A DNA stretch of 64,000 nucleotides, taken from assembly GCF_003073135.1 (NCBI RefSeq), contig NZ_PGDQ01000007.1:124001-188000 (forward strand), given 5' to 3'. The notes below the pieces were generated by a model. It had not been told where the DNA came from and searched no databases. It was given only the letters and a program-made list of their open reading frames with translations. The position numbers and the translations under genes were made by a program. This stretch comes from Euzebya rosea. Its GTDB lineage: Bacteria > Actinomycetota > Nitriliruptoria > Euzebyales > Euzebyaceae. Shown piece after piece: positions 25,709-34,132 of the stretch (its first letter is position 1; each line of letters starts with the position of its first letter).

Positions 25709-25759
25709 TGGTAGCCCCGACGGGATTCGAACCCGCGTCGCCGGCTTGAAAGGCCGGTA
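25709..25759 (-). repeat. attL: displaced 3' fragment of tRNA-Glu
   Basis: 51 bases identical to 34056-34106. On the minus strand they run from the anticodon stem through the T-arm to the encoded CCA. The sequence beyond 25759 has no D-arm or 5' acceptor strand, so this is not a functional tRNA but the old 3' end pushed away by integration. Confidence 0.92.
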
Positions 25760-25838
25760 GCGCACCCTCGCGTTGGGCCAGCATCGCCGCAGGTCAGCGG
25801 CCTGTTCGTGCCGGCATCGTACACCCTTGCAGACCGTT

Positions 25839-25860
25839 CGTGCCACGTACGTGCCATAAG
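25839..25860 (+). repeat. Integrase arm-type repeat, left copy
   Basis: A 22-base sequence identical to 33954-33975, made of two tandem units beginning CGTGCCA. An inverted relative (GTGGCACGCTG) follows at 25870-25880. It sits just upstream of the integrase gene and mirrors the right end, as expected of integrase arm-binding sites flanking a core. Confidence 0.7.
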
Positions 25861-25885
25861 AATCCGGAAGTGGCACGCTGAGGGC

Positions 25886-27025
25886 ATGGCCAAGCGCTCT
25901 CGCCGACACTCCGGCGGCACCATCCGCCAGCTCCCCTCGGGGCGGTGGCAGGTCCGGGTGCGCGACGGCGCCACGTCCAAGCTCGTGGCGCTCGGCACCT
26001 ACGCGACCAAGGCCGATGCCAACGCCGCCCTGCGGCACGCCGGGGCCGATCAGGACCGGGGCGCCTGGGTGCCCCCCGAGCGTGGCAGCGTGCGGCTCGA
26101 GGACTACGCCCGCGATTGGCTCGACTCCAACCCTCGGATCCGGTCCCCCAGGACGCGCGAGCGGTACGACGGCCTCCTGCGTCTCCACATCGGCCCGACC
26201 ATCGGTCAGGCCGCCATCGGCAAGATCACCCCCGCCTCGGTCCGTCGCTGGCACACCGACCTCGCCGCCTCAGCTTCGAGCGACACCGCGGCCAAGGCGT
26301 ACCGGATGCTCCGCGCCGTCCTGAACACCGCCGTTGCCGACGAGCTGATCGTGCGCAACCCGTGCCGCCTCGATGGGGCCGGCCAGGAGCGAGCCGAGGA
26401 ACGTCCGCTTGCCACCGTGGCCGAGGTCAACGAGCTGGCCGACCTCGTTGACCCGCGTTGGCGCCTGCTCGTGCTCATGGGCGCGTGGACCTCCCTGCGC
26501 TTCGGCGAACTGGCCGCGCTGACCCGGGCCGACGTCGACCTGATGCGTGGCGTCGTGCGCGTCACGAAGAGCCGTCAGCGACTGGACGACGGCACCTCGG
26601 TCGTGGTCCCGCCCAAGAGTGCTGCCGGCCGCCGGACCGTCGCCATCCCTCCCCCGCTGGTCCCCGAGATCGAGCACCACCTCGCCGCCTTCGCCCAGGA
26701 GGGGGCCGACGGGCTCCTGTTCGTCGGCGCCAAGGGTGCGCCGCTGGACCGCTCGCACTGGAACCGACGGTGGCGCAGGGCCCGCGCCGCGATCGGGCGC
26801 GACGACCTGCGGTTCCACGACCTACGGCACACCGGCAACACCCTTGCCGCCGCCACGGGCGCGTCCACGAAGGAACTGATGACGCGGATGGGCCACTCCT
26901 CGATGGCGGCCGCGCTGCGCTACCAGCACGCCACCGATGATCGCGACCAGGCCATCGCCCGGGCCCTGGGTGAGGCCATGGAACGCGGTAAGGTCGTCGA
27001 GCTCGACGACCGGCGGTCCGGTTAG
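25886..27025 (+). CDS. int: Tyrosine site-specific integrase
   Basis: A 379-residue phage-type integrase that would integrate and excise this element at tRNA-Glu. An arm-binding N-terminal domain (GTIRQLPSGRWQVRVRDG) and a SAM-like core-binding domain (RLEDYARDWLD...RERYDGLLRLHIGPTIG) precede the catalytic domain. Catalytic residues are visible: R in TSLRFGELAAL (about 206), HDLRH (about 311-315), H in MGHSS (about 336) and the tyrosine in RYQHAT (about 347). ATG 25886 gives the standard N-terminus. It lies directly next to attL. Confidence 0.95.
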   Translation: MAKRSRRHSGGTIRQLPSGRWQVRVRDGATSKLVALGTYATKADANAALRHAGADQDRGAWVPPERGSVRLEDYARDWLDSNPRIRSPRTRERYDGLLRLHIGPTIGQAAIGKITPASVRRWHTDLAASASSDTAAKAYRMLRAVLNTAVADELIVRNPCRLDGAGQERAEERPLATVAEVNELADLVDPRWRLLVLMGAWTSLRFGELAALTRADVDLMRGVVRVTKSRQRLDDGTSVVVPPKSAAGRRTVAIPPPLVPEIEHHLAAFAQEGADGLLFVGAKGAPLDRSHWNRRWRRARAAIGRDDLRFHDLRHTGNTLAAATGASTKELMTRMGHSSMAAALRYQHATDDRDQAIARALGEAMERGKVVELDDRRSG

Positions 27026-27462
27026 GGGACGAACACGACGCCGCGACCCCTCGCGTCCGCTTCACGGCCCAGAGTGGTGCACCGGGCCTTCTTCAACGAC
27101 GTCTTGAGGCCACAGCCGCGGCACCTCAGGTGCGCGGCGCGGCCGGGGACCTCCAACCACGCCAGACGCTTGTCGCCGATCACCGCGCCATCGGTGCCGT
27201 AGCCGCCCCTGGCCACTCGTTCGCTTAGCGCCCCGTGCCGCGCTCGTTCGAAAGCGGTAGCCCCGTTCCGCTGCAAGACGAGGGGTTCCCACAGCATGCC
27301 CCGGCGCCAGTCGTCGCCCTCCGGTCGGAACCTCGGGGCGGACTCCCACTGGGGGACGAGGATCGCCAGCAGCGGGGAGCGGTCGCCAAGCCGGTCCGCG
27401 CACCGCGAGCAGCGGACGTGGACGCGTGGCTCGTTGTTCCAGTCAATAGTCGTGGCACTCAT
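27022..27462 (-). CDS. Zinc-ribbon-like hypothetical protein of the element
   Basis: A 146-residue protein with two Cys pairs, CSRC near residue 19 and CRGC near residue 114, suggesting a split zinc-binding site. It overlaps the integrase stop by 4 bases tail to tail and is divergent from the excisionase candidate, the position of a phage regulator. The start ATG lies inside an inverted repeat (27455-27469). No family recognised; a regulatory or nuclease-accessory role is inference. Confidence 0.6.
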   Translation of the reverse strand: MSATTIDWNNEPRVHVRCSRCADRLGDRSPLLAILVPQWESAPRFRPEGDDWRRGMLWEPLVLQRNGATAFERARHGALSERVARGGYGTDGAVIGDKRLAWLEVPGRAAHLRCRGCGLKTSLKKARCTTLGREADARGRGVVFVP

Positions 27463-27469
27463 GGAGTGC
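27455..27469. promoter_or_regulatory. Inverted repeat over the divergent start region
   Basis: GCACTC and GAGTGC arms with a 3-base spacer overlap the start codon of the minus-strand zinc-ribbon gene. A TACGAT box lies just upstream on the minus strand (27471-27476). The 110-bp divergent gap is richer in A and T than its surroundings and probably holds the element's control switch. Confidence 0.35.
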
Positions 27470-27572
27470 TATCGTACATTCCGGTAACTACATAGCTGTG
27501 GGCTCCGCCCCGACAGGTTCCAGGGATTCGCGTTCAGACGATACCGACGGGCCGTCGATTGGAGCGTGCCCG

Positions 27573-27755
27573 ATGAGCGATCAGCTCGTTGATGTGAAGT
27601 CCGCAGCGGAGCGCCTCGGCGTGACCGAGCGCTGGGTCCGGCGGGCCGTGGCCGAGCGCCGCATCCCCTTCGTGAAGCTTGGACGTCTGGTCCGCTTCCG
27701 CCCGGCCGACCTCGACGCGTACACCGAGGACCACACCGTCGCGGCGGTCCACTGA
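27573..27755 (+). CDS. Excisionase-like helix-turn-helix protein
   Basis: A 60-residue DNA-binding protein of the MerR/excisionase type. DVKSAAERLGVTERWVRRAVAERRIPFVKLGRLVRFRPADLDAY matches the winged helix-turn-helix of small excisionases almost end to end. GGAG lies 8 bases before ATG 27573. In such elements this protein steers the integrase toward excision. It starts the rightward gene train and is followed 1 base later by the next gene. Confidence 0.82.
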   Translation: MSDQLVDVKSAAERLGVTERWVRRAVAERRIPFVKLGRLVRFRPADLDAYTEDHTVAAVH

Positions 27756-27756
27756 G

Positions 27757-28125
27757 ATGCCCCGCAACAGAACGGGCCCCCGCCAAGGGGCCCGGTCCGG
27801 ATCAGTCACCGCCACAGCGACTGTTGCCAATGGTAACAGCCCCGACCCGCGGACAGAGGGTATGGCCGATGCCGTGGCGGCGATGTCGGCGCCGGACCGC
27901 GACCGGGCCGCCCTCGCCCTGGAGGCGCTCAGCGTCGACGGGTTCGCGTGGACCGTCGACGATCTGCGCGACCGCGTCGAGCCCCTCACCCTGTCCGGCG
28001 GCAACGCCGCGTGGGGCGGGCTCCTGTCGTCCTGGGCCCGCGCCGGGCTGATCCGCTGCGTCGGCGTCACCGAGTCGCGCCGCCGGCCGGGCGCGTTCGT
28101 CCGGCAGTGGGAGGGTGCGCTGTGA
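27757..28125 (+). CDS. Small basic protein with winged-helix-like C-terminus
   Basis: A 122-residue protein. Residues 1-35 are basic and disordered-looking; the rest (DRDRAALALEALSVDGFAWTVDDLRDRVEP...GLLSSWARAGLIRCVG) has the rhythm of a winged helix ending in a beta hairpin. It begins 1 base after the excisionase stop and ends in a GTGA overlap with the next gene. Probably a replication or regulatory accessory of the element. Confidence 0.6.
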   Translation: MPRNRTGPRQGARSGSVTATATVANGNSPDPRTEGMADAVAAMSAPDRDRAALALEALSVDGFAWTVDDLRDRVEPLTLSGGNAAWGGLLSSWARAGLIRCVGVTESRRRPGAFVRQWEGAL

Positions 28126-28508
28126 CGCACCACCTCCAGATCCTCGACCCCGCCGTCGACGGCGTCGCCGAGCTCCTCGACGGGGCCAGGGCGGCACTGC
28201 TCGTGCTGTCCCTCGACACCTGCGGCCACATCACCGACTCCGCGTCGGCGTGCGTGGCCTGCCCCGCCGACGGGCTGCGCTGCACCCCGTGCGCGAAGCT
28301 GCACTACGCCGACGACCACGAGCTTGGCTGGCGGTTCACCTGCGACCGCTGCGGGACCGTCGACCACCAGCTGTCCAGCGTCATGTGCGCCGGCGTGACC
28401 GCGCTGCTGACCGGCCACCCGCTGCCCGTCGACGTCCGACTCGACGGGCTCGGGCTGTGCGCCGCGTGCTGTCTCCACGTCAGCGGTACCGCCGGGGGCG
28501 TCGGATGA
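28122..28508 (+). CDS. Cysteine-rich zinc-finger-like protein
   Basis: A 128-residue protein with many Cys residues in paired spacing (CGH, CVACPADGLRCTPC, CDRCGTVDHQ, LCAACC), likely binding one or more zinc ions. GTG 28122 overlaps the previous stop as GTGA, and its own stop overlaps the primase start as ATGA. Function unknown; such proteins often sit before primases in small actinobacterial prophages. Confidence 0.62.
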   Translation: MTHHLQILDPAVDGVAELLDGARAALLVLSLDTCGHITDSASACVACPADGLRCTPCAKLHYADDHELGWRFTCDRCGTVDHQLSSVMCAGVTALLTGHPLPVDVRLDGLGLCAACCLHVSGTAGGVG

Positions 28509-29329
28509 GCGGCTCCACGATGCTCGACGCCGCCCTCGACCTCGCCCGCCGGGGCTGGAACGTGTTCCCCTCGGCCGCTGGATCGAAGCTGCCACTGATC
28601 AAGTCGTGGCCCGACGTGGCCACGACCGACCCCGCCCAGGTCCGCGCGTGGTGGACGCGCTGGCCTGACGCCAACGTCTCCCACTGCACGGGCGCCTCGG
28701 GCACGATGGTCCTCGACCTCGACGGGCCCGAGGGCTTCGCCTCCTGGCGCAACCTCCAGCGCGTGCACGGGCGGGCCCCGGTCACGCGCATGGTCGTGTC
28801 GCCCCGGCCCGAGGGTGGCGTCCACCTGTACTGGCGAGCCCCCGCCGATCTGTACGTGAAGTCCACGGCAGGACGGATCGGCTCGACCCACACGACCGGC
28901 ATCGACGTGCGCGGAACCCGCGGGCAGGCCGTCCTGCCGCCGAGCGTCCGCGACGACGGCGGCGCCTACCGTTGGCACGACCCCGAGGCCCGGATTGCCG
29001 ACCCGCCCCGCTGGCTCGTGGCCATGCTCACCCCCAAACCGCCGGTGTTCGCCAGACCGGCCCGGATCGGCACGGTTGGGTCGCGCCTCGACGGGCTCGT
29101 CCGCGTCGTGACCGGCTGCGGCAAGGGTGACCTGAACAATCGCCTCCACTGGGCGGCCTGCCGGGCCGGCGAGATGGTCCGGGACGGCGCGGGCTCGGCC
29201 GACGAAGCCGCCCGAGCCCTGCTGGCGGCAGCCATCGACAAGGGGCACCCGCGCCCCGGCGCCGAGGCCACCATCCGGTCCGGCATGGGCAAGTACGGCG
29301 TGACGCCCGCGTCAGGGGAGGCGCTGTGA
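28505..29329 (+). CDS. Bifunctional DNA primase/polymerase (prim-pol)
   Basis: A 274-residue replication protein of the element. The N-terminal prim-pol domain shows DLARRGWNVFPSAAGSKLPLI, a catalytic-looking VLDLDGPEGF (acidic pair), GGVHLYWRAP and IDVRGTRGQAVLPPS, all standard for phage and plasmid prim-pol proteins. The C-terminal helical region (about 185-274) resembles the small domain linking to a helicase. ATGA and GTGA overlaps couple it to both neighbours. Confidence 0.88.
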   Translation: MSGSTMLDAALDLARRGWNVFPSAAGSKLPLIKSWPDVATTDPAQVRAWWTRWPDANVSHCTGASGTMVLDLDGPEGFASWRNLQRVHGRAPVTRMVVSPRPEGGVHLYWRAPADLYVKSTAGRIGSTHTTGIDVRGTRGQAVLPPSVRDDGGAYRWHDPEARIADPPRWLVAMLTPKPPVFARPARIGTVGSRLDGLVRVVTGCGKGDLNNRLHWAACRAGEMVRDGAGSADEAARALLAAAIDKGHPRPGAEATIRSGMGKYGVTPASGEAL

Positions 29330-30531
29330 ACCTCGCCGACCTCGTGCCCGACGACGCTGGCACCACCGGCGCCCAGCTCCTCGACGACGTCCACGCCTTC
29401 CTGCGGCGGTTCGTCGCCTACCCGTCCCCGCCCGCCGCCGTCGCCCACGCCCTGTGGATCCTCCACTGCCACCTCATGGAGGCATGGGAGTCCACGCCCC
29501 GACTGGCGCTGCTGTCACCCGAACCGGGATCGGGCAAGACCCGAGCCCTTGAGATCACCGAGCTGCTGGTCCCCAACCCCGTCGAGGCCGTCAACGTCAC
29601 CCCGGCCTACCTGTTCCGCAAGGTCGGCGACGAGGAGGCCGGCCGGCCCACCATCCTGTTCGACGAGATCGACACCGTGTTCGGGCCCAAGGCCCGCGAC
29701 AACGAGGAGATCCGCGGACTGCTGAACGCCGGGCACCGGCGGGGCGCCGTCGCCGGCCGCTGCGTCGTGCGCGGCAAGCAGGTGTTCACCGAGGAGATCC
29801 CCGCCTACTGCGCCGTCGCGCTGGCGGGGCTGGGCGACCTGCCCGACACCATCATCACCCGCTCCGTCGTGGTCCCCATGCGTCGCCGTGCCGCCGGCGA
29901 GGTGGTCGAGCCCTACCGGCGCCGGCTGCACGCCCCCGAGGGCGACGCCCTCCGGACCCGCATCGAGGCCTGGGCGGCGATGGTGCTGCCCGTCGTGGAC
30001 GGGGCAATACCCGATATGCCCGACGGCATCACCGACCGTCCCGCCGACGTCTGGGAACCCCTGCTGTCGGTCGCCGACGCGGCCGGCGGCGACTGGCCCG
30101 AACGGGCCCGCGGTGCGGCTGTTGCGCTTGTTGCGCATTCCAAGGCAGCCACTCCCAGCCTCGGCGTCCGGCTCCTCTCCGACCTGCTCGAGGTGTTCGG
30201 CGACAGCGAGGCGATGCCGACCGAGCTCGTGCTCGCCCGGCTCAACCAGCTGGAGGAGGCGCCCTGGGGCGACCTCAAGGGACGGGCGCTTAACGCCCGC
30301 GGGCTCGCCCAGCGGCTCCGCAAGTACGGCGTCCGGCCGGTCACCATCCGGTTCGGCGACACCACGCCGAAGGGCTACCGCCGCGAGGACCTGCACGACC
30401 CGTGGTCACGCTACCTCCCCTCATATCCCCTTAACACACGATCAGAGGGAAGCCAGTCGGTGCGGGGACCGGCCCCCATTGAATCCGCAACATCCGCAAC
30501 ACCCGCAACGTGGACCGGTGGCGTGCTGTGA
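29326..30531 (+). CDS. DUF3631 ATPase, replication partner of the primase
   Basis: A 401-residue P-loop protein. Walker A is PEPGSGKT (about 65-72) and Walker B is TILFDEIDTVFG (about 110-121). Later SKAATPSLGVRLLSDLLEVFGD, LVLARLNQLEEAPW and the C-terminal LAQRLRKYGVRPVTIRFGDTTPKGYRREDL are typical of DUF3631 proteins found next to prim-pol genes. It probably acts as the replicative or loader ATPase of the element. GTG 29326 overlaps the primase stop. Confidence 0.87.
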   Translation: MNLADLVPDDAGTTGAQLLDDVHAFLRRFVAYPSPPAAVAHALWILHCHLMEAWESTPRLALLSPEPGSGKTRALEITELLVPNPVEAVNVTPAYLFRKVGDEEAGRPTILFDEIDTVFGPKARDNEEIRGLLNAGHRRGAVAGRCVVRGKQVFTEEIPAYCAVALAGLGDLPDTIITRSVVVPMRRRAAGEVVEPYRRRLHAPEGDALRTRIEAWAAMVLPVVDGAIPDMPDGITDRPADVWEPLLSVADAAGGDWPERARGAAVALVAHSKAATPSLGVRLLSDLLEVFGDSEAMPTELVLARLNQLEEAPWGDLKGRALNARGLAQRLRKYGVRPVTIRFGDTTPKGYRREDLHDPWSRYLPSYPLNTRSEGSQSVRGPAPIESATSATPATWTGGVL

Positions 30532-30758
30532 CGCGCCCCGGACAGCCCGACCACCGGACCGAGGTGCGAGCCGCCCGCGACCGCCTCGCCCACCTGTGCC
30601 AGCTCCGCGCCCAAGGCTGCGCCGGTCACGCCGACGCGGCTGCCCGCACGGGCCGGAGAGGGGGCGGGGTCGAATCACTGGAACGTAAAGCGCCCCTGGA
30701 CACCCCGGCTCCTTCCGTTTCCCCCTCCCGAGAAATTCGAAAAGGACATGCACTGTGA
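30528..30758 (+). CDS. Small basic protein, unknown
   Basis: A 76-residue Arg-rich protein whose GTG start overlaps the DUF3631 stop and whose stop overlaps the next GTG, both in the GTGA manner seen throughout this run. That chain is the main evidence that it is translated. TEVRAARDRLAHLCQLRAQGCAGH suggests one helix. No family recognised. Confidence 0.5.
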   Translation: MTRPGQPDHRTEVRAARDRLAHLCQLRAQGCAGHADAAARTGRRGGGVESLERKAPLDTPAPSVSPSREIRKGHAL

Positions 30759-31003
30759 ACATCGAGCTCCCCGACCTGATCGACGCCTCCCGGACCGCCG
30801 TCGGCATGGTCCGCTGCCGCCTCGCCGGCGACCGGGCCGGCGAGGTCGCGCTGATGCGCGACGCCGACCACGAGGCGCTGCTGCTGCAGCTCGTCGCCAT
30901 GGCCGCCCGGCTGACCGAGGCCAAGGCCGCCACCGACGGCACCACCCCCGACGCCCTGGTCGCCGAGTGGGCCCGCCTCCTGGCAACAGGTGCTGGCCAA
31001 TGA
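30755..31003 (+). CDS. Small helical acidic protein, unknown
   Basis: An 82-residue protein predicted almost fully helical (DLIDASRTAVGMVRCRLAGD; EALLLQLVAMAARLTEAKAA). GTG 30755 overlaps the previous stop. It lies in the usual place for a small head-completion, scaffold or terminase-small-like protein just before a capsid gene, but no signature supports any of those. Confidence 0.55.
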   Translation: MNIELPDLIDASRTAVGMVRCRLAGDRAGEVALMRDADHEALLLQLVAMAARLTEAKAATDGTTPDALVAEWARLLATGAGQ

Positions 31004-31197
31004 CGCGCTCCTCCCGTACGCTGGTGACAGGTTTACTCACCGAGGAACCGAGGCCGGCCGGCCGGGACCCCGTCCCCCGCGCCAACCGCACCGCAAGCCC
31101 CCACGAAGGTCGCCAGAGGCACCGCCCGGACCGCGGGGAACGCACCGCCAAGCCCATTCCTCGGAAGGAACCACGCCATGCCACAGATCACGTCTGA
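31000..31197 (+). CDS. Possible small basic protein overlapping the capsid start
   Basis: A 65-residue frame beginning with an ATGA overlap to the previous gene, continuing the coupling pattern, but running 20 bases into the capsid gene. Composition is very basic (many Arg, His, Pro) and not convincingly protein-like. It may instead be leader sequence of the capsid mRNA. Confidence 0.28.
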   Translation: MTRSSRTLVTGLLTEEPRPAGRDPVPRANRTASPHEGRQRHRPDRGERTAKPIPRKEPRHATDHV

Positions 31198-32446
31198 GAC
31201 CCTCCAGCGGGCCAACAGCCAGCGCGACCACGGGATCGCCCTCGAGTCGCTCCGCGGCGTCCAGCGCGGCCTGCTCGACTCCATGACCGCCCTTGTCGAC
31301 GGCGCCAAGGCCGAGAACCGCGACCTGCTCGCCTCGGAGGCCAGGGAGATGGACCGCCTGACCCTGCTGCACGCGGAGGCCGAGGTTCTCGCCGGCAGCC
31401 GGCAGGAGCAGCGCAACCGCACCGTCGACGCCATGAACCGCTCGATCGCCAAGCACGGCGTCGACGTCCGCCCCCAGGGCGAGGTCCGCGACGACCGGGG
31501 CGGCCCGGCGCCCGGCTGGCTGCCCGGCTGGAACGAGTACCGCACCCTGGAGGCCCGAGCCGTCGCCGAGGGCACCGGCTCGGCCGGCGGGTTCTTCGTC
31601 CCCACCGAGCACGCCAACACCTTCGTGGACCGTCTCGCCGCGCAATCGGTGTTCCTCAACGCCGGCCCGCGGATCTTCACCATGTCCACCGACCGGCTGG
31701 AGGTGCCCAAGATCGGCAGCTCCGTCACTGCGGAGTTCGTGGCCGAGAACACCGCGATCACCGCGTCGGACCCGACCTTCGCCCAGGTCGTGCTGACCCC
31801 GAAGAAGGCCGCCGCGCTGACCCTGGCGTCAAACGAGTCCCTCGCCGACTCCCGGCCCGAGCTGCGCGAGGTTCTGGCCTACGACCACCTCCGGTCCGTG
31901 GCGCTGCTGCTGGACCTGCAGATGCTGCAGGGCGACGGCACCGGGAACGGCCTGATCGGCGTCCGCAACTTCTCCGGCGTCACCGACACCGAGCTCGGCG
32001 CGGGCGACGGGGCGATACCCACCCTCGACGACGTCGCCGACGCCATCGAGCGGCTGGAGACCGACGACGCCACCGCGACCGCCATCTTCATGGCGCCGCG
32101 GACCTGGGCGACGTTCCGCAAGCTCGTCGACGTGGACGAGCGCTACCAGCTGGCCCCCGACCCGACGATGGAGTCCCGCCGCCAGCTGTTCGGCGTGCCG
32201 GTCCGCACCTCCTCCCAGATCGCCGTCGACGAGACCACCGGCACCTCCACCGACACCTCGTGGATCGCCGTCGTCGACATGTCCCAGATCGCCGTCGGCC
32301 GGCGCGACGGCGTCCGGCTGGAGTACAGCCGCGACTACGCCTTCGACGCCGACCAGACCGCAATCCGCACCATCTCCCGCTGGGACGTCGCCCCGATCAA
32401 CGCCGGCGGCGTCGAGCTCATCACCGGCGTCCGCAACACGGCCTAG
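31178..32446 (+). CDS. HK97-type phage major capsid protein
   Basis: A 422-residue structural protein. Residues 1-95 are a charged coiled-coil delta-like scaffold region. Residues about 125-420 have the HK97 capsid pattern: GSAGGFFVPTEHANTFVDRL, RIFTMSTDRLEVPKI, FAQVVLTPKKAAALTLASNESLADS, LLDLQMLQGDGTGNGLIGV, ATAIFMAPRTWATFRKL, LFGVPVRTSSQI, VDMSQIAVGRRDGVRLEYS and DQTAIRTISRWDVAPINAGGV. GGAAGGA precedes the ATG. No prohead protease, portal or terminase accompanies it, which is unusual. Confidence 0.9.
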   Translation: MPQITSETLQRANSQRDHGIALESLRGVQRGLLDSMTALVDGAKAENRDLLASEAREMDRLTLLHAEAEVLAGSRQEQRNRTVDAMNRSIAKHGVDVRPQGEVRDDRGGPAPGWLPGWNEYRTLEARAVAEGTGSAGGFFVPTEHANTFVDRLAAQSVFLNAGPRIFTMSTDRLEVPKIGSSVTAEFVAENTAITASDPTFAQVVLTPKKAAALTLASNESLADSRPELREVLAYDHLRSVALLLDLQMLQGDGTGNGLIGVRNFSGVTDTELGAGDGAIPTLDDVADAIERLETDDATATAIFMAPRTWATFRKLVDVDERYQLAPDPTMESRRQLFGVPVRTSSQIAVDETTGTSTDTSWIAVVDMSQIAVGRRDGVRLEYSRDYAFDADQTAIRTISRWDVAPINAGGVELITGVRNTA

Positions 32447-32454
32447 CCAAGCCA

Positions 32455-32491
32455 CGGCCGGGCCCCCTCATCCTTCGTGGGGCCCGGGCCG
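32455..32491 (+). terminator. Hairpin after the capsid gene
   Basis: Arms CGGCCGGGCCCC and GGGGCCCGGGCCG pair with one bulged base around a 12-base loop, 8 bases beyond the capsid stop. Likely the first terminator of the rightward element transcript. Confidence 0.6.
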
Positions 32492-32531
32492 CTCCGCAAC
32501 CGGGTTCGTTGGTGGCCCGGCCGGAGACCCC

Positions 32532-32559
32532 GACGCCCCCGGCAGCAACCGGGGGCGTC
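32532..32559 (+). terminator. Second terminator after the capsid gene
   Basis: A perfect 11-bp stem (GACGCCCCCGG) with a CAGCAA loop, followed by ACTCGTTCTT. This is the best rho-independent shape of the three. Confidence 0.7.
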
Positions 32560-32660
32560 ACTCGTTCTTGGAGAACACCCACACTGGCATCAACTCGCCC
32601 CGTTGACCGCGACCGACACGTTGACCCGTCGAGGCCTGCGAGTAGGCCCCAACAGAGAAA

Positions 32661-32685
32661 CGGCCCGGAGCGAGGCTCCGGGCCG
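32661..32685. terminator. Third hairpin in the stack
   Basis: A perfect 11-bp stem (CGGCCCGGAGC) with a GAG loop. It could end transcription from either side. Confidence 0.55.
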
Positions 32686-32773
32686 TCGAAGCCGCATGAA
32701 CGGGGTGGGTGCTCACGCGACTGGTGCGGGAGGCTACACGCGCTGCCCCAGCGAGTTGGGGAGAGGTCCCCAC

Positions 32774-32807
32774 CTCGGCAGGTGAACAGTCCTGTTCACC
32801 TGCCGAG
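32774..32807. repeat. Perfect 34-base palindromic hairpin
   Basis: Arms of 16 bases (CTCGGCAGGTGAACAG) around a 2-base loop. It lies just beyond the stop of the minus-strand broken gene. The right arm and following bases (CACCTGCCGAGTAGCG) recur after the next minus-strand gene at 33265-33280 with a different upper stem. Confidence 0.8.
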
Positions 32808-32818
32808 TAGCGTGGACG

Positions 32819-33200
32819 TTAGGTGGTGGCCGAGGTGCCGAGCGCGTCGGCAACCTTCTCCCGGGTAAACCAAGTGCGGCTTGATGTCGCGGGCCACACG
32901 GCACCGGGCCGGAACGCTTGTGACCAGTTGGGCACAAGCGTTCGGACCCTCGGTCCCTCCATCCGCTCCAGCACCCGGCCTGCACAACCTGCCTGCACAA
33001 CCTGCTTGGCCCGCTCCGTGACCGACGAGGTCCGCGACCGCATCTTGGCGCTCGGTGAGTTCCACCACGGTGGAACCGGCCGCCGACTCCAACTCCACGT
33101 CCTCCGAGCTGGTCGCCCTCGGCGAGACGAGAACACCTGCCGCAAGGACATGACGGATGTCCGGTCGTTGGTCGTCGGGCAGACCAGGTGATTTCCACAT
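32819..33200 (-). pseudogene. Possible frameshifted element gene
   Basis: Two overlapping minus-strand frames each look coding for half of this stretch. Upstream, a frame from ATG 33200 gives SSEDVELESAAGSTVVELTERQDAV-like acidic sequence; downstream, another frame ends TWFTREKVADALGTSATT and stops at 32819. Between them lies a 13-base tandem duplication (32980-33005); removing one copy joins the two frames. Alternatively a short intact gene of 74 residues starts within the downstream frame. Function unknown; the end looks helix-turn-helix-like. Confidence 0.35.
32980..33005 (+). repeat. 13-base exact tandem duplication
   Basis: CTGCACAACCTGC occurs twice in a row. Thirteen is not a multiple of three, so the duplication shifts any reading frame that crosses it. 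Confidence 0.9.
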
Positions 33201-33248
33201 CTGTGGAACCCCAAGCGACGACAGGACGTGGGGGACCGACTTGGCTGA

Positions 33249-33280
33249 GGTGCGTAGGACTACGCACCTGCCGAGTAGCG
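33249..33280. repeat. Second hairpin with shared 3' flank
   Basis: GGTGCGTAG and CTACGCACC form a perfect 9-bp stem with a 2-base loop, followed by TGCCGAGTAGCG as in the copy at 32774. It lies 8 bases beyond the stop of the minus-strand gene at 33288, so it may be its terminator. Confidence 0.7.
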
Positions 33281-33287
33281 GGGACAG

Positions 33288-33872
33288 TCAGTCCCCGGAA
33301 TGGGGATGGAGGATCGTGAACGCGTCCGTCAGGCACTCCATCGCGTCACCGAGATCATCCGCGGTCAGCTTCTCGTCCGGCCACTGTGTCCAGCGGTAGA
33401 GGGCGTGCATGGCCTGGCTCACGCGGCGCTCGATGAGGACCAGGTCGTCCCTCGGGACGACGCGTTCGCCCGGCAGGACCCGCCGGCCCACGATCTCTGA
33501 TACCGCGTACCCGGCTGCGAGCCCCCACGCCATCGCCTCGTTGATCTCGGCCGCGTGTGCGCACCTGATCGGGTCGGCCACGGCGAAGTCGACATCGAGA
33601 TCGTTCACCAGGCGGTCTGTCTCGCCGAGCTCGGGGTGAGCGAACCCCTCGATGTAGCGGAGGCCGTCCTGTAGGGCAAAGACATTCCCGAGAACGGGGT
33701 GGTTCGGCGTGTTGCCCTCCTCCTCTCGCGCCTCCAACACGGCGTTGAGAACCTGACCTGTCACCTTCCGCCCCCACGGGTGCTCGTACGGCAGGTCCTG
33801 ACCGTCAACAGAGGTAGACACCTCCCCGTCCTGGCCGCCGCGCACGTCCTCGATGCTCGATACCTTGCCCAT
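33288..33872 (-). CDS. Hypothetical element cargo protein
   Basis: A 194-residue acidic soluble protein on the strand opposite the replication genes. AGGAGG lies 9 bases before ATG 33872, a strong start. It shows a disordered charged N-terminus (1-40), then helices (DRLVNDLDVDFAVADPIRCAHAAEINEAMAWGLAAGYAV; LIERRVSQAMHALYRWTQWPDEKLTADDLGDAMECLTDAFTIL). It shows no known signature. Its independent transcription at the right end is typical of cargo (moron) genes, so a host-benefit or phage-interference role is possible but unproven. Confidence 0.65.
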   Translation of the reverse strand: MGKVSSIEDVRGGQDGEVSTSVDGQDLPYEHPWGRKVTGQVLNAVLEAREEEGNTPNHPVLGNVFALQDGLRYIEGFAHPELGETDRLVNDLDVDFAVADPIRCAHAAEINEAMAWGLAAGYAVSEIVGRRVLPGERVVPRDDLVLIERRVSQAMHALYRWTQWPDEKLTADDLGDAMECLTDAFTILHPHSGD

Positions 33873-33953
33873 TGTCAGCGCCTCCTCATGGTGCTGGCCG
33901 GGCTCGGAGGCGTCCTAATCGCCTGCCGAGCCGCCTGCTGTTGGAGGCTCTGC

Positions 33954-33975
33954 CGTGCCACGTACGTGCCATAAG
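33954..33975 (+). repeat. Integrase arm-type repeat, right copy
   Basis: 22 bases identical to 25839-25860. An inverted relative (CTATGGCACGTAGC, 33987-34000) follows. With the left copy these give four or more CGTGCCA-type sites placed symmetrically around the element ends. Confidence 0.7.
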
Positions 33976-34009
33976 GAACGGATTCCTATGGCACGTAGCG
34001 GTAAGTCAC

Positions 34010-34044
34010 GGTCAGAGCCAGTTGATACGAAACTGGCTCTGACC
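34010..34044 (+). terminator. Strong terminator next to attR
   Basis: A perfect 14-bp stem (GGTCAGAGCCAGTT) with a 7-base loop, followed by TGCGTTTTCG on the plus strand. It would stop rightward element transcripts before they run antisense through tRNA-Glu, and may also act downstream of the tRNA on the minus strand. Confidence 0.72.
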
Positions 34045-34055
34045 TGCGTTTTCGC

Positions 34056-34106
34056 TGGTAGCCCCGACGGGATTCGAACCCGCGTCGCCGGCTTGAAAGG
34101 CCGGTA
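34056..34106 (-). repeat. attR: core identity inside tRNA-Glu
   Basis: Exact copy of 25709-25759. Identity begins at the anticodon stem and ends with the encoded CCA, the usual region for tyrosine-integrase crossover in tRNA genes. Confidence 0.92.
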
Positions 34107-34132
34107 TCCTAGGCCAGCTAGATGACGGGGCC
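34056..34132 (-). tRNA. tRNA-Glu (anticodon TTC), intact copy at attR
   Basis: The minus strand folds as a full cloverleaf. GGCCCCG pairs with CGGGGCT (first pair G-U, as in Bacillus tRNA-Glu). A D-arm follows, then anticodon stem CCGGC/GCCGG with loop CTTTCAA (TTC anticodon) and T-arm GGGTTCGAATCCC. Discriminator A and CCA are encoded. The 3' 51 bases were supplied by the integrated element; the 5' part (34107-34132) is chromosomal. Confidence 0.93.

Follow-up and report, generated by a model that had tools for sequence, protein, structure and literature searches.

What use can a small integrative element make of a phage capsid gene when it carries no portal, terminase, protease or tail gene? 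The question is raised by an 8,347-bp element of Euzebya rosea, bounded by exact 51-bp tRNA-Glu repeats and lying at positions 25709-34106 of the window, that is, of the whole 64,000-nucleotide stretch analysed here (contig NZ_PGDQ01000007.1, positions 124,001 to 188,000). We consider that the element is probably a helper-dependent phage satellite resembling the phage-inducible chromosomal islands (PICIs), and that its capsid gene builds or reshapes heads. We favor this reading because similar lone-shell elements are found in other bacteria, the replication genes are accompanied by no conjugation gene among the called proteins, the capsid gene is intact, and Ccm, the capsid homologue of the satellite SaPIbov5, provides a precedent. 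The element is not a one-off remnant: two other complete capsid-only elements and one near-lone element were found.

Boundaries and gene content of the element

The element is real, complete, bounded by attachment (att) repeats and mobile between sister genomes. An earlier note, made from the sequence alone, had delimited it by clean att repeats and had called an integrase, an excisionase candidate, a Prim-Pol, a DUF3631 protein and an HK97-type capsid; the ends are indeed identical 51-mers, and Pfam, PHROGs and NCBIfam confirmed the gene calls. The features are as follows (GC3, GC content at third codon positions; HTH, helix-turn-helix).

25709..25759, minus strand: left attachment repeat (3' part of tRNA-Glu), 51 bp, identical to 34056-34106
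25877..27025, plus strand: tyrosine integrase (PF00589, 2e-17; phrog_1, 1e-70); start codon uncertain, frame open from 25808
27022..27462, minus strand: hypothetical protein, 146 aa, with paired-Cys motifs; coding GC3
27570..27755, plus strand: excisionase-like HTH protein (TIGR01764, 2e-13; phrog_1840 excisionase)
27757..28125, plus strand: hypothetical protein, 122 aa (phrog_27658, 3e-4)
28122..28508, plus strand: hypothetical Cys-rich protein, 128 aa; open reading frame with 4-bp overlaps to its neighbours
28505..29329, plus strand: Prim-Pol, bifunctional primase/polymerase N-terminal domain (PF09250, 4e-44)
29326..30531, plus strand: DUF3631/RepAM replication ATPase (PF12307, 9e-61); relatives up to 70% identical
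30755..31003, plus strand: small hypothetical protein, 82 aa (orf82), directly upstream of the capsid gene; GC3 0.93
31178..32446, plus strand: HK97-fold major capsid protein, 422 aa, with delta scaffolding domain (TIGR01554, 8e-52; PF05065, 3e-46)
33288..33872, minus strand: hypothetical protein, 194 aa (orf194); coding GC3
34056..34106, minus strand: right attachment repeat, 51 bp, the same 51-mer as the left copy
34056..34132, minus strand: intact tRNA-Glu (TTC) (ARAGORN; Rfam, 60.5 bits); single copy in sister genome G024

The left tRNA copy is a weaker, tRNA-like hybrid (35.4 bits in Rfam against 60.5 for the intact copy). Sister genome G024 has one tRNA-Glu and one att copy without the element, and sister genome G022 has a different 2.7-kb insert between the same tRNA-Glu repeats; inserts of at least two kinds have therefore used the site, and on an evolutionary time scale the element moves. 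The insert of this sister species (G022; L109:3459-6214) has no recognised integrase and is flanked by att-like repeats at tRNA-Glu.

Five or six small hypothetical proteins are encoded besides the integrase, HTH, Prim-Pol, DUF3631 and capsid proteins. The 146-aa protein has no convincing family match in Pfam, PHROGs, NCBIfam or PADLOC, and orf194 has no match in these four or in phage records and no homologue was found. The 122-aa protein has a homologue (34%, 3e-7) in a satellite-like island of Tsukamurella (L113). We considered orf82 as a conserved scaffold protein and rejected it, no homologues having been found.

No portal, terminase, maturation protease, connector or tail gene was matched among the called genes with Pfam, PHROGs and NCBIfam. 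Hidden Markov models (HMMs) built from the large and small terminase subunits (TerL, TerS), portal, protease and adaptor proteins of related elements gave no match in a six-frame scan of 25709-34106, broken frames included, and the same scan recovered these genes in relatives that carry them. The absence of portal, terminase, protease and tail genes claimed in the earlier note thus holds. It also bears on the alternative that the element is a reduced form of a former capsid-forming satellite or prophage, from which TerL, portal and protease were deleted and in which the capsid now has little or no role: the six frames hold no remnant of the missing genes, and the ends, integrase, replication genes and capsid are all intact.

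The capsid protein

The capsid gene is full-length (GC3, 0.97) and free of frameshifts, and its product, the sole PF05065 protein in the genome, aligns with TIGR01554 over almost its whole length (residues 40-416). An AlphaFold2 model (mean predicted local distance difference test score of 73, from a shallow alignment) places a helix at the N terminus (residues 6-70); a disordered linker follows (about 68-130), and the HK97 fold takes up residues from about 135 to 420. In HK97 the delta domain is the portion cut off by the phage protease; the presence of a delta domain in the model therefore points to a phage-type capsid and not an encapsulin. HK97 heads and proheads rank first in a Foldseek search with the model, the first encapsulin appearing at rank 47, and VIA-align gave Z scores of 19.3 for HK97 Prohead II and 19.1 for the EcCI2 capsid of a capsid-forming PICI (cfPICI), with encapsulins slightly lower at about 16-18. 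Phage capsids outscore encapsulins by sequence too.

These comparisons leave use of the capsid as a non-viral, encapsulin-like compartment, one of three readings offered in the earlier note, extremely improbable. Encapsulins do have the same fold, as the Z scores of about 16-18 on structural re-alignment attest, but the model has the helix and linker of a phage-type delta domain, which encapsulins lack, phage capsids and HK97 proheads are the better matches, and no known cargo-enzyme family was recognised among the element's genes with Pfam and PHROGs.

No close relative of the capsid was found in phages and plasmids, where matches reach only 24-33% identity; identity to named phage records is at most about 30%. 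Single-protein patterns from IMG/VR gave no close capsid relative, and an alignment search of IMG/VR gave weak matches only, mostly to ordinary phage head modules. With a profile of the element capsids (A2), the capsid of the Rhodobacter gene transfer agent is the best match among solved structures (E, 1e-48). Ccm is absent among the PDB matches listed, by sequence or by structure, which neither proves nor excludes kinship.

Relatives sharing the capsid type

The capsid type was found by profile search in five of 396 genomes drawn from the phylum, that of the window counted. Two of the elements are complete and carry the capsid alone among head genes. L006, from the same class, is 8,156 bp long, is bounded by tRNA-Leu copies and encodes a helicase besides the capsid. 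L099, from the same phylum, is 7.5 kb long and bounded by tRNA-Ala copies; it encodes a DnaB-like helicase and an O-like initiator, and its capsid gene is near the right att site. In the near-lone element L005 the capsid is accompanied by a serine recombinase, a primase/helicase and one phrog_226-type protein. The six-frame HMM scan found no TerL, portal or protease in any of these three. No further lone-capsid elements were found in 34 genomes of the classes of G332 and G104. Beside the lone-capsid element of L006 lie an extra tRNA-Leu att copy and an integrase fragment (L006:11155-12273), suggesting stacked insertions.

Fuller head modules are also seen. TerL and portal accompany the capsid in L098, from the same phylum, and in L105, and an island in a plasmid has the order HNH-TerL-portal-capsid-adaptor and shares the 122-aa protein with the window's element (L113). 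This compact satellite-like island, in plasmid 5 of Tsukamurella tyrosinosolvens (L113:378-10408), also carries an integrase. The lone-capsid layout recurs at other tRNAs (L006, L099); no homologue was found for the gene at 33288. The earlier note had reasoned that portal and terminase genes at the same place in sister genomes would mark this copy as a deletion remnant; of the sisters, G024 lacks the element and G022 has a different insert, and such genes occur in relatives elsewhere (L098, L105, L021, L113).

In a maximum likelihood tree of 19 capsids, which has few rows, long branches and few sampled phages, six capsids from small elements or contigs (L013, L099, L105, L005, L006 and L098) cluster with support of 99/99, separate from the sampled phage capsids. 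Lone and TerL/portal-bearing forms interleave within this cluster: lone L099 is sister to L105 (99/98), and lone L006 groups with L098 (86/79). The window's capsid falls outside the cluster, with no resolved placement. The interleaving suggests, as an indication and not a count, that the lone-capsid state arose more than once.

The same interleaving, together with the capsid relatives that adjoin TerL and portal in small elements (L098, L105, L113, L021), speaks for reduction by deletion. We nevertheless judge a reduced element to be unlikely. Beyond the intact genes and the lack of lost-gene traces described above, the capsid gene has a GC3 of 0.97, lone-capsid elements of similar size occur at other tRNAs with other replication modules, and the deletion remnant proposed in the earlier note is weakened by this recurrence in att-bounded elements; it could hold as an ancient reduction, given the relatives with TerL and portal beside the capsid.

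Relatives sharing the DUF3631 protein

With the DUF3631 protein as query, related elements were recovered from metagenome-assembled genomes (MAGs) of actinobacteria and proteobacteria, the identity in that protein reaching 70%. Six of the 86 DUF3631 loci carry capsid or terminase genes, the other 80 being without head genes. An element at a tRNA-Asn of Parvularculaceae has the unusual combination of a capsid, a tape measure and a TerS-like gene without portal or TerL (L013, 7085-15875); L014 has a protease and capsid; an element at a tRNA-Pro of Burkholderiales has TerL-capsid-protease-portal (L021); a 10-kb IMG/VR contig has TerL-portal-protease-scaffold-capsid-adaptor (L008); and Mycolicibacter senuensis has a capsid and a minor tail protein (L026). 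In another 10-kb IMG/VR contig, DUF3631 is followed by TerL without a recognised HK97 capsid (L007, 312-3510). The subsets of head genes are graded across relatives, and the largest are full TerL-portal-capsid modules. In proteobacterial MAGs the DUF3631 proteins share 64-70% identity with that of the window (L012, 10001-11047; L013, 10001-11119; L014, 4489-5574), which suggests either movement of the gene between phyla or MAG binning errors.

The pairing of RepAM (DUF3631) with Prim-Pol is a known replication module of actinomycete integrative and conjugative elements (AICEs) (PMC3218068), so the element might be an AICE-type integrative element that acquired its capsid gene by chance. The 80 loci without head genes would fit such an origin, but no conjugation gene, including the FtsK/Tra type, was recognised among the called proteins with Pfam and PHROGs, and several DUF3631 relatives from unrelated bacteria also have capsid or packaging genes. 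We regard chance acquisition by an AICE as very improbable.

Comparison with known satellites

Lone capsid genes in satellites are already known. In SaPIbov5 the satellite itself encodes Ccm, a capsid homologue that has the HK97 fold and a delta domain. Ccm is unable to assemble capsids by itself; it occupies the pentamers, converts the prolate heads of its helper to small T=4 heads and blocks the helper (PMC5052747, PMC8569155). A capsid homologue is likewise found in PmCI172 of Pasteurella (PMC6092414). The Mycobacterium candidate PICIs, phiRv1/phiRv2 among them, are defined by an integrase and a major capsid gene, and SatelliteFinder missed some of those that bear a capsid (PMC10654092). 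According to the earlier note, satellites with a capsid normally have portal, terminase and protease as well; this overlooks Ccm (PMC5052747, PMC8569155) and the Mycobacterium candidates (PMC10654092).

The window's element, whose satellite status is probable, resembles SaPIbov5 in that its capsid homologue stands alone, has the HK97 fold and a helical delta domain, and is unaccompanied by a portal or protease, so that head parts would come from a helper. In SaPIbov5, Ccm is a homologue of the capsid protein of its known helper. Like the Mycobacterium candidates, the window's element combines integration machinery and a capsid gene within a short region other than an intact prophage. By gene content both are small elements of actinobacteria, often inserted at tRNA genes, that have integrase, replication and capsid genes, although some of the Mycobacterium elements additionally carry terminase or scaffold genes. 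As in PICIs, there are a specific att site (the 51-bp repeats), an integrase, an excisionase-like TIGR01764 HTH protein and an own replication module (Prim-Pol and DUF3631). The divergent regulator pair with a master repressor (Rpr/Stl) of PICIs was not recognised: Pfam, PHROGs and NCBIfam gave no repressor-like protein besides the excisionase-like HTH. The cfPICIs, which bring a whole head module (PMC10690885), also have their own HK97 capsid, integrase and replication genes, but encode protease, portal, connectors, TerL, TerS and HNH, none of which was found here; L021, L008 and L113 are the cfPICI-like forms among the relatives. AICEs share the integrase, excisionase, replication module and tRNA site, and differ in their FtsK/SpoIIIE-type Tra protein, which is not among the called genes of the window's element, where a capsid is present instead. 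Since there is no cfPICI module, no AICE Tra protein and no recognised PICI master repressor, and the delta region is longer than that of Ccm, we describe the element as a PICI-like satellite of Ccm-like architecture and not as a member of the PICI, cfPICI, AICE or Ccm families.

Ccm expressed alone cuts phi12 titres 10^3-10^4-fold, so a lone subunit suffices for interference (PMC5052747). An anti-phage decoy, in which the capsid would mainly be a dominant-negative poison of invaders' head assembly that protects the host, with packaging secondary or absent, could work in this way. The complete mobility and replication genes would be superfluous for pure defence, however, and no element protein has a PADLOC match to a defence gene; a decoy is accordingly improbable.

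A possible helper and the proposed cycle

The genome carries a myovirus-type prophage of about 41 kb (contig C4, about 137-179 kb; L122, L123, L124) with genes for an integrase-like protein, TerL, portal, scaffold, major head protein, sheath, tube, tape measure and baseplate. Its terminase is matched by phrog_9, and phrog_2 has no match in the genome. This prophage could provide the parts absent from the element and is a possible helper.

Of the readings offered in the earlier note, that of a satellite is the best supported. As a helper-dependent satellite, the element would be excised from tRNA-Glu by its integrase and excisionase and replicated by Prim-Pol and DUF3631, to judge from the families of these proteins. 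The HK97-fold shell protein would then join head assembly with the portal, protease, terminase and tail of a helper, and the resulting heads would carry the satellite of about 8.3 kb. The capsid protein may replace part of the helper shell and shrink it, like Ccm of SaPIbov5, or it may form the whole shell on nucleation parts of the helper; we hold these two options about equally likely.

Some points weigh against a satellite of this kind. First, the major head protein of the resident prophage belongs to another family (phrog_29) and comes with a separate scaffold protein, so mixed shells of the two capsid proteins are unlikely; dependence on a homologous resident prophage capsid was rejected on the same ground. 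Second, neither a master repressor of the Rpr/Stl type nor TerS nor a known cos/pac site was recognised in the element. Third, its delta region, at about 130 residues, is not shortened, compared with 82-87 residues in Ccm, and the HK97 fold begins near residue 135 in contrast to 83-88 in Ccm (PMC5052747, PMC8569155); the exact Ccm mechanism may therefore not apply.

Candidate cis-acting sites

Three further features may act in cis.

25848..25856, plus strand: copy of the TACGTGCCA repeat close to the left end; may be an integrase arm site
32760..33290, unstranded: candidate cis-acting region (putative origin or packaging site), lying where the capsid gene and orf194 converge
33963..33997, unstranded: two TACGTGCCA copies in inverted orientation close to the right end; may be integrase arm sites

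The region at 32760-33290 contains two strong hairpins that have ACCTGCCGAGTAGCG in common as a shared 3' sequence and whose arms differ yet stay complementary. A third hairpin lies in the same region, and the palindrome TTCCACNNNNGTGGAA occurs there in two exact copies, against an expectation of 0.01 in the window. A promoter is unlikely here because the region lies between converging genes, and an origin or packaging site is our putative assignment. No hairpin or origin motif shared with the other lone-capsid elements was recognised.

Implications for satellite biology

Two classes of satellite are usually distinguished: some steal every head part, and others bring along a whole head and packaging module. 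Capsid-only elements, which recur at different tRNA genes and with different replication genes, fall between these two classes. Their existence suggests that a satellite gains most from owning the shell subunit, since this sets head size and makes sabotage of the helper possible. It is a tentative possibility that capsid-only satellites represent a distinct, recurrent strategy, in which small tRNA elements of different bacterial lineages retain a single HK97 capsid gene and make their own complete small shell, which the portals, proteases, terminases and tails of heterologous helpers accept. The Ccm precedent makes the capsid-only idea testable. Should the protein form an entire shell together with portals of foreign origin, the system would test the interchangeability of head parts between unrelated phages.

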